Source: Neisseria bergeri (GTDB lineage: Bacteria; Pseudomonadota; Gammaproteobacteria; Burkholderiales; Neisseriaceae). From it: 64,000 nt of DNA. Numbering within the stretch: position 1 is the stretch's first letter; each line of letters begins with the position of its first letter. The position numbers and the translations under genes were made by a program. The stretch is from NCBI GenBank assembly GCA_003044455.1, contig POWY01000005.1:1-64000 (forward strand), read 5' to 3'. The notes beneath the pieces were generated by a model, which was not told the origin of the DNA, ran no database searches, and saw nothing but the letters and a program-made list of their open reading frames with translations. Below are positions 43,015 to 43,787 of the stretch, in pieces.

Positions 43015-43033
43015 TAACCGCTTGGAGCGGTAT
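43015..43033 (-). terminator. Terminator of the tRNA-Leu(UAA) unit
   Basis: On the minus strand ACCGCTCCAAGCGGTTATTTTTTTAT is a 6-bp hairpin with a T-rich tail, 15 bases after the tRNA end. Confidence 0.8.
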
Positions 43034-43047
43034 TGTTATTTTCAGCT

Positions 43048-43137
43048 TGGTGCCCGGAGCCGGAATCGAACCGGCACGGGATGTTTAGTCCCGACGGATT
43101 TTAAGTCCGTTGTGTCTACCTATTTCACCACCCGGGC
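43048..43137 (-). tRNA. tRNA-Leu (UAA)
   Basis: The acceptor GCCCGGG pairs with CCCGGGC-type partner near the 3' end (CCGGGCACCA). The anticodon loop CTTAAAA in stem ACGGA/TCCGT gives UAA. A long variable arm (CGGGACTAAACATCCCG) makes it type II. The T arm has GTTCGATTC. CCA is encoded. It is the last gene of the tRNA block. Confidence 0.95.
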
Positions 43138-43149
43138 ATTTGTGAAAGG

Positions 43150-43227
43150 TGGAGGCGGGGGCGCGGATTTTAACCGGCCTGTATGAAGATTGCACTCCTC
43201 ATAGCATAAACACTCTGCCACCCCGCC
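43150..43227 (-). tRNA. Degenerate tRNA-Cys-like gene (78 nt), anticodon-loop GCA
   Basis: The minus strand has a perfect acceptor (GGCGGGG / CCCCGCC) with discriminator T and encoded CCA, as in the tRNA-Cys next door (GGCGAGA..CTCGCCTCCA). The D arm resembles Cys (GCAGAGTGTTTATGC). The middle forms a long stem (TATGAGG / CTTCATA) with loop AGTGCAAT holding GCA. The T loop is TTAAAAT instead of TTCGATT and its stem pairs poorly. It is a decayed duplicate or an unusual tRNA; normal decoding is doubtful. Confidence 0.5.
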
Positions 43228-43237
43228 GTAATATATA

Positions 43238-43311
43238 TGGAGGCGAGAGTCGGAATCGAACCGGCGTAGACGGATTTGCAATCCGCTGCATAACCACTTT
43301 GCTATCTCGCC
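43238..43311 (-). tRNA. tRNA-Cys (GCA)
   Basis: The 74-nt gene has acceptor GGCGAGA / TCTCGCC, anticodon stem CGGAT/ATCCG with loop TTGCAAA region giving GCA, T arm GTTCGATTC and CCA. It lies 10 bases from the degenerate Cys-like gene. Confidence 0.95.
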
Positions 43312-43334: not shown

Positions 43335-43410
43335 TGGAGCGGGAAACGAGTCTCGAACTCGCGACCTCAACCTTGGCAAGGTTGCGCTCTACCAACTGAG
43401 CTATTCCCGC
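43335..43410 (-). tRNA. tRNA-Gly (GCC), copy 1
   Basis: A 76-nt gene: acceptor GCGGGAA / TTCCCGC, anticodon loop TTGCCAA (GCC), T arm GTTCGAGAC, encoded CCA. It is identical to three more copies at 43432, 43531 and 43632. Confidence 0.96.
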
Positions 43411-43431
43411 GCGTTCAAACATATCGGCTTT

Positions 43432-43507
43432 TGGAGCGGGAAACGAGTCTCGAACTCGCGACCTCAACCTTGGCAAGGTTGCGCTCTACCAACTGAGCTA
43501 TTCCCGC
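43432..43507 (-). tRNA. tRNA-Gly (GCC), copy 2
   Basis: Same 76-nt sequence as copy 1, after a 21-base spacer. Confidence 0.96.
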
Positions 43508-43530
43508 GTTGATACGTTTGAAATAAAACT

Positions 43531-43606
43531 TGGAGCGGGAAACGAGTCTCGAACTCGCGACCTCAACCTTGGCAAGGTTGCGCTCTACCAACTGAGCTAT
43601 TCCCGC
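43531..43606 (-). tRNA. tRNA-Gly (GCC), copy 3
   Basis: Same 76-nt sequence as copy 1, after a 23-base spacer. Confidence 0.96.
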
Positions 43607-43631
43607 AATGATTACGGAAGAATGAAATTTT

Positions 43632-43707
43632 TGGAGCGGGAAACGAGTCTCGAACTCGCGACCTCAACCTTGGCAAGGTTGCGCTCTACCAACTGAGCTA
43701 TTCCCGC
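43632..43707 (-). tRNA. tRNA-Gly (GCC), copy 4 (first transcribed)
   Basis: Same 76-nt sequence as copy 1. It is the promoter-proximal copy on the minus strand; pgsA ends 80 bases upstream of it. Confidence 0.96.
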
Positions 43708-43787
43708 CCGATTTCACTCTCCGATATCGAAGAAGACGCAATTATTATGGATTCTGTTTTTACCGTCAAGCTATTTTTATGTTTTTT

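Follow-up and report, generated by a model that had tools for sequence, protein, structure and literature searches.

A conserved tRNA-Cys-like RNA gene in the tRNA cluster of Neisseria and other Neisseriaceae, a candidate for a task outside ordinary decoding

The stretch of DNA analyzed here, called the window, comprises 64,000 nucleotides from Neisseria bergeri. On its minus strand lies a cluster of tRNA genes in the order four tRNA-Gly(GCC), tRNA-Cys(GCA), a tRNA-Cys-like element of 78 nt with an encoded CCA, and tRNA-Leu(UAA). The initial annotation had placed the element at 43150-43227, and these coordinates proved to be exact, the 5' end being at 43227 and the 3' end at 43150 on this strand. 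The features of the locus, beginning at the head of the cluster, are:

43741..43769, minus strand: promoter-like site TTGACG-17-AATAAT upstream of the first tRNA-Gly gene (consensus match only; 1 found, 0.8 expected)
43335..43707, minus strand: four tRNA-Gly(GCC) genes, head of the cluster (ARAGORN and Rfam tRNA model)
43238..43311, minus strand: ordinary tRNA-Cys(GCA), the presumed parent gene (ARAGORN and Rfam tRNA model)
43150..43227, minus strand: tRNA-Cys-like RNA gene, 78 nt, CCA encoded (BLAST and covariance model)
43048..43137, minus strand: tRNA-Leu(UAA), downstream neighbour of the element (ARAGORN and Rfam tRNA model)
43017..43031, minus strand: terminator-like hairpin and T run after tRNA-Leu (consensus match only; 2 found, one per strand, 1.2 expected)

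The positions of the promoter-like and terminator-like sites fit a single operon, the numbers of such matches in the window being near chance. Neither ARAGORN nor the Rfam tRNA model (RF00005, gathering threshold) calls the element, whereas the seven other tRNA genes of the window are called. The Rfam model did not match it even at E<=10 when an isolated stretch of 98 bases was searched, and ARAGORN called none of the 57 copies present in the 55 loci which we fetched (40 from the genus and 15 from other genera). Both detectors miss the element because it breaks their tRNA model. In all 55 loci the ordinary tRNA-Cys gene lies on one side of the element, and in 54 of them tRNA-Leu(UAA) lies on the other; in the exception, L031, ARAGORN calls no tRNA-Leu within the stretch fetched.

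Some details of the neighbouring genes should be recorded. The ordinary tRNA-Cys gene of the window has a C.A mismatch in its T stem (GCCGG vs CCGAC), and the same mismatch is found in six of the eight ordinary tRNA-Cys copies printed from Neisseriaceae. In one genome (G023, L026:1589-1663) ARAGORN calls the ordinary tRNA-Cys as 75 nt and not 74 nt. In loci L007-L011 the spacer between the element and tRNA-Leu contains an inverted repeat, GGCTGC...GCAGCC, possibly an attenuator or a processing hairpin.

The structure of the element was derived from 33 distinct 78-nt forms, 27 from the genus and 6 from other genera, and positions are numbered by tRNA convention through our own alignment to ordinary tRNA-Cys. 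The parts of the window copy, from 5' to 3', are:

43221..43227, minus strand: acceptor 5' strand GGCGGGG, pairing with 43154-43160; the 7 pairs are standard in 33/33 forms, with one compensatory change from G-C to A-U
43204..43218, minus strand: D arm with A14, G15 and G18 kept and G19 replaced by U; U19 in 33/33 78-nt forms
43182..43203, minus strand: remodelled anticodon arm with an 8-bp stem; changes on both sides in 8/8 pairs
43190..43195, minus strand: 6-nt loop NUGCAA with the anticodon GCA at 43191-43193; GUGCAA in 30, AUGCAA in 2 and CUGCAA in 1 of 33
43161..43178, minus strand: T arm with a variable bulge of one nucleotide at 43163 in the 3' strand and A in place of C56; pair 52:64 is C-G in 31 and U-A in 2
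43150..43160, minus strand: acceptor 3' strand CCCCGCC, discriminator U73 and CCA; U73 in 33/33

The intact acceptor and CCA seen at the outset are thus borne out, the 7-bp acceptor, U73 and the encoded CCA all being present. The anticodon stem had been described as a helix of 7 bp carrying a loop of 8 bases. An extended helix around GCA is indeed found, but its size has to be revised: the innermost pair (alignment columns 32:39) is standard in all 33 forms (G-C 27, A-U 4, U-G 2), so the loop has six nucleotides, and a stem of 8 bp with a 6-nt loop is favoured. U33, GCA and A37 are invariant in the loop in 33/33, while the outermost pair, 26:44, is non-standard in 13/33. The anticodon stem of 5 bp and the 7-nt loop of a canonical tRNA (RF00005) are not found in the 78-nt form.

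The structure named above pairs in 97.9% of the cells of the comparison of 33 forms, and changes on both sides are seen in 10 pairs and 41 cells; neither count was reached in any of 500 shuffles, and slid registers came out lower on every measure, but these measures are inflated by the relatedness of the rows, unlike the number of further pair types, which shows no excess (17 vs 17.0 in shuffles). Folding of single sequences gave a mixture of cloverleaf and alternative folds, the energy of the window element having a z of -2.20 with 6 of 200 shuffles as low.

In the T stem the bulged register pairs in 33/33 forms; without the bulge, standard pairs at the two positions at issue are formed in 0 and 1 of 33. 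The absence of TTC from the T arm, also remarked upon initially, holds for the window, where the loop is TTAAAAT, but not as a general trait, since TTCAAAT occurs in 10 of the 33 distinct forms. The contacts U8:A14, G18:U55 and U54:A58 are kept in 33/33. The elbow pair G19:C56 is lost; position 56, opposite the constant U19, is A in 18, C in 10, U in 4 and G in 1. A compensatory U19:A56 would fit the species of the window, but as position 56 varies among the 78-nt forms it is only a hint. We also considered the 6/6 split between acceptor and T stem drawn by RNAalifold, in which column 68, pairing with 7 in 33/33, pairs instead with 49 (possible in 32/33). The 7/5 split was kept because compensation at column 68 is confined to the 7:68 pair, where two forms of the 75-nt type described below have A-U in place of G-C.

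A degenerate gene, as the element was first called, should have relaxed constraint, and this was not seen. Over the 40 loci of the genus the element has a mean pairwise identity of 93.1%, compared to 93.6% in ordinary tRNA-Cys and 94.4% in tRNA-Leu, and the two spacers flanking the element are at 47.5% and 45.2%, compared to 45.9% for shuffled spacers. On this comparison of sequences the constraint on the element is what an RNA constrained like working tRNAs would show. Absence of expression together with random substitutions across strains had been named as the outcome that would refute an unusual tRNA or tRNA-like RNA. The substitutions are not random: most of them fall in the anticodon stem and are compensated on the other strand, the 41 cells changed on both sides comparing with a mean of 8.8 in shuffles. 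Conservation of the altered arms across Neisseria, which had been proposed as a check, is observed, and the reading as a degenerate copy is unsupported, because the substitutions are largely compensatory and the conservation equals that of the neighbouring tRNAs.

A BLAST search (83-nt query, E<=1e-20) found the element in 40 of 46 Neisseria genomes, that of the window included. Such presence between tRNA-Cys and tRNA-Leu(UAA) is not due to chance. These 40 genomes hold 42 copies, all exactly 78 nt long and representing 27 distinct sequences. Tandem pairs of the element with small differences between the copies occur in G005 and G025 (L007 1398-1578; L010 1504-1686). In three genomes of the genus (G015, G042, G043) the ordinary tRNA-Cys is kept and the element is absent; the remaining three (G030, G032, G033) are 68-85% complete, and neither the element nor tRNA-Cys was matched in them.

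The covariance-model scan suggested by the initial annotation was carried out with a model, R1, which gives the element at least 78.6 bits and ordinary tRNA-Cys at most 57.8 bits among 83 Neisseriaceae genomes. It found the element in 63 of the 83, in 9 of 12 genera. The other 20 comprise 9 genomes with ordinary tRNA-Cys only and 11 with no match at all; these 11, four of which are at least 93% complete, carry no information on absence. The 9 genomes which keep tRNA-Cys, of the kind represented by G015, G042 and G043, show that the element is dispensable in some lineages. Four of these nine were printed; there tRNA-Cys and tRNA-Leu are direct neighbours, and no remnant of the element is recognisable by eye. 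An exact-pattern scan of genome contigs gave 30 stretches, all from Neisseria, Snodgrassella, Conchiformibius, Bergeriella or other Neisseriaceae, and this is a lower bound because the pattern is exact and many R1 carriers are missing from the list.

R1 run over 399 genomes of the order (E<=1e-11, Infernal's stricter filters) matched nine Neisseriaceae genomes and five others, and on reading four of these five matches look like ordinary tRNA-Cys of 74 nt. A second model, R2, run over 369 genomes of the class, gave one match per genome and cannot tell the element from ordinary tRNA-Cys, so it is uninformative on the class. The fifth match of R1 outside the family lies in an unrelated member of the Burkholderiales (G087, L081:756-828): a lone second tRNA-Cys-like gene of 73 nt, called by ARAGORN, whose D loop is shortened and whose variable loop has 3 nt, in a genome with an ordinary tRNA-Cys elsewhere. 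None of the three other genomes of its family gave this gene; one has an ordinary copy, and in the other two nothing was matched. Inspection of the neighbouring open reading frames by eye alone did not help to interpret it.

A second form of the element, 75 nt long, is found in three genera, g5, g6 and g10, the last taken as Snodgrassella. It is present in 17 genomes, of which 9 were read, giving 8 distinct sequences. Its anticodon arm has standard size in 8/8, with the 26:44 position, five pairs and the 7-nt loop GUGCAAA; in the 78-nt form the stem is longer by two pairs, and the loop, which lacks position 38, is shorter by one base. The 75-nt form also has the other oddities of the element: G19 is lost, the variable loop has 3 nt, and one nucleotide bulges out of the 3' strand of the T stem. 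The changes in the elbow and the T stem are thus common to both. Position 19 is A in six and U in two of the 75-nt sequences, giving A19:U56 in 6/8 and U19:A56 in 2/8, and the seventh acceptor pair is changed in a compensatory manner (G-C 6, A-U 2).

A tree of cysteinyl-tRNA synthetase (CysRS) from 40 genomes, with a midpoint root for drawing only, groups g5 with g10 (96/93) and places g6 apart on a long branch. G043, from which the element is absent, is sister to G017, where it is present (100/98), and the absences require at least 3 changes on well-supported branches. The tree, which is of one gene, is partly unresolved and has one g3 genome inside the genus of the window, fits an old presence followed by repeated loss. 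As to the origin of the element, we infer that the tRNA-Cys gene was duplicated in tandem in an ancestor shared by much or all of the Neisseriaceae.

Bacterial CysRS uses U73, G2:C71, C3:G70 and the GCA anticodon, and in E. coli also G15:G48, according to the passages on cysteine identity in PMC9976931. The first four are found in all 33 distinct 78-nt forms and G15:G48 in 32/33. Exactly one match to CysRS (E<=1e-20) was found in each of 80 of the 83 genomes and none in the other three, all of which are at most 81% complete; there is thus no sign of a dedicated second CysRS*. Since the identity elements are kept and there is a single CysRS, charging by the common CysRS is the natural expectation, and the element is probably able to carry cysteine.

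On balance we think it probable that the element is a paralogue of tRNA-Cys which selection has maintained as a tRNA-like RNA of non-standard type, charged by CysRS and most likely working outside ordinary decoding. The observations which form the basis of this proposal are the conservation, the synteny, the covariation, the retained identity nucleotides and the single CysRS. The T-stem bulge, the loss of the elbow pair and the 6-nt loop on an extended helix argue for a place outside decoding; the 75-nt form, with its ordinary 7-nt loop, may still decode. Of the two readings offered at the start, a decayed copy or an unusual tRNA or RNA used outside translation, it is the second which is favoured here.

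The course of events which we propose is as follows. The tRNA-Cys gene would have been duplicated in tandem and the copy then kept by selection. The element would be transcribed within the Gly-Cys-Leu cluster, processed as its neighbours are, and charged with cysteine by the only CysRS of the cell. EF-Tu contacts the T stem of a tRNA, which is the site of the bulge. With this bulge and without G19:C56 the element would be poorly suited to EF-Tu and the ribosome. In the 78-nt form the 6-nt loop on a helix longer by two pairs would add to this and misplace the anticodon. As to its task, the element might provide a protected pool of Cys-tRNA donating cysteine to a non-ribosomal reaction, or alternatively act as a sensor or titrator of CysRS and the cysteine supply. 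A bolder version, in which Neisseria, Snodgrassella and their relatives share a dedicated non-decoding Cys-tRNA, charged by CysRS and shaped to escape EF-Tu and the ribosome while feeding or sensing cysteine for a process still to be described, is put forward tentatively and given less than an even chance.

Possible partners were searched for in 21 genomes, 13 carriers and 8 non-carriers. The FemAB-type transferase is the partner of the staphylococcal tRNA-Gly, and relatives of it (Fem/MurM, PF02388) were found in none of the 21, with the control positive in 3 of 14. T-box leaders were likewise found in none, with the control positive in 5 of 14, and neither a FemAB-type partner nor T-box regulation was retained. 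Cyclodipeptide synthases gave 0/21, the control being silent. For a ligase of the PEARL type (Lant_dehydr_N, PF04738) a weak fragment of 28.4 bits was found in one genome, the control again being silent; this fragment (G055:C1:1373250-1373399) resembles the N-terminal domain of lantibiotic dehydratase.

The alternative ranked second after a non-decoding Cys-tRNA is that the element is a minor isoacceptor of tRNA-Cys which is charged, bound by EF-Tu and reads UGC and UGU, perhaps slowly, with frame slippage or in special conditions. The unvarying U33, GCA and A37 and the standard size of the anticodon arm in the 75-nt form would suit such a role, and tRNAs with an extended anticodon stem (tRNA-Pyl, mt-tRNA-Ser) do translate according to the part of PMC7609411 which treats them. 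However, an ordinary tRNA-Cys(GCA) adjoins the element in all the fetched loci, so there is no decoding gap to fill. The 78-nt form, being without position 38 and having two extra stem pairs, should displace the anticodon, and G32 is found in 30/33 forms where the printed copies of ordinary tRNA-Cys have U or C. We regard this alternative as rather unlikely.

In third place comes an uncharged structural or regulatory RNA, with tRNA-like ends which serve merely for maturation and stability. It could act as a decoy, with CysRS, an anticodon nuclease or a tRNA-modifying enzyme as its target, or it could direct the processing of the tRNA operon precursor. The location inside a tRNA cluster in every fetched locus would agree with this, and tRNAOther of Bacillus cereus is a precedent for a tRNA-like RNA outside translation, as far as PMC3399842 describes it. 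A decoy or a spacer need not, however, keep U73, G2:C71 and C3:G70, which are invariant, and a processing signal would be expected wherever the cluster occurs, whereas the four printed non-carriers, out of nine, have the Cys-Leu cluster but not the element. This makes the explanation quite improbable. A decaying pseudogene or a curiosity of assembly is scarcely credible, as it would suit a gene uncalled by the tRNA finders used and cleanly absent in some lineages, but not compensatory pairs, a constraint equal to that of functional tRNAs between unconstrained spacers, or carriage by independent assemblies across nine genera.

What has been found is a conserved RNA gene, missed by both tRNA detectors used, in a genus with human pathogens and in bee gut symbionts. 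We know of no other cysteine tRNA reserved for a different task; the element would be the first if it is charged but takes no part in translation, and it would then point to an undescribed process which uses or senses cysteine. If it does translate, the ribosome can make use of an anticodon arm built from an 8-bp stem and a 6-nt loop. The survey of odd tRNAs, selC* among them, by Mukai et al. in 2017 may mention minor bulged species of tRNA-Cys. In the open-access papers searched by titles, abstracts and passages, no description of the element was found.

Several known RNAs resemble the element in part. Like the selC* tRNA-Cys, as portrayed in the relevant passages of PMC7609411, it has GCA, U73, an extended anticodon stem and a bulged T stem. 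The selC* tRNA has an 8/4 acceptor branch, the bulge A51a, a longer variable arm and its own CysRS*, whereas the element has a variable loop of 3 nt and bulges in the 3' strand of the T stem, and there is one CysRS. An 8/4 branch of the selC* or allo-tRNA type was considered and rejected, there being no eighth pair (8:67 is U-C in 33/33). An allo-tRNA is likewise rejected; the 8/4 or 9/3 branch is absent and U73 is found instead of serine identity, which in bacteria includes G73 according to the same part of PMC9976931. Further non-canonical tRNAs described in PMC7609411 combine an extended anticodon stem with a variable region of 3 nt, as the element does, but have 6-bp stems and other identities, while the 78-nt element has seven pairs plus 26:44 and a 6-nt loop. 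The tRNAOther of B. cereus is also a tRNA-like RNA proposed to act outside translation, but it has a Trp anticodon, is poorly charged in vitro (with lysine), occurs in some Bacilli and was tested as a T-box regulator, as related in PMC3399842; T-box leaders were found in none of the 21 genomes searched here. The element is thus a tRNA-derived tRNA-like RNA whose combination of features matches no family tested.

The closest working model is the non-proteinogenic tRNA-Gly of staphylococci, used in cell-wall synthesis (pentaglycine) in S. aureus. Like the element it belongs to a set of isoacceptor genes, has a low score and is altered in its D and T loops; as the element might be, it is charged efficiently by the normal synthetase and not efficiently recognised by EF-Tu (PMC8007984, in the parts dealing with this tRNA). 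The element differs in being a cysteine tRNA, in the extension of the anticodon helix and in the T-stem bulge, the last two having no mention for tRNA-Gly in those parts of PMC8007984, and in the lack of a relative of the FemAB-type transferase in the 21 genomes searched.
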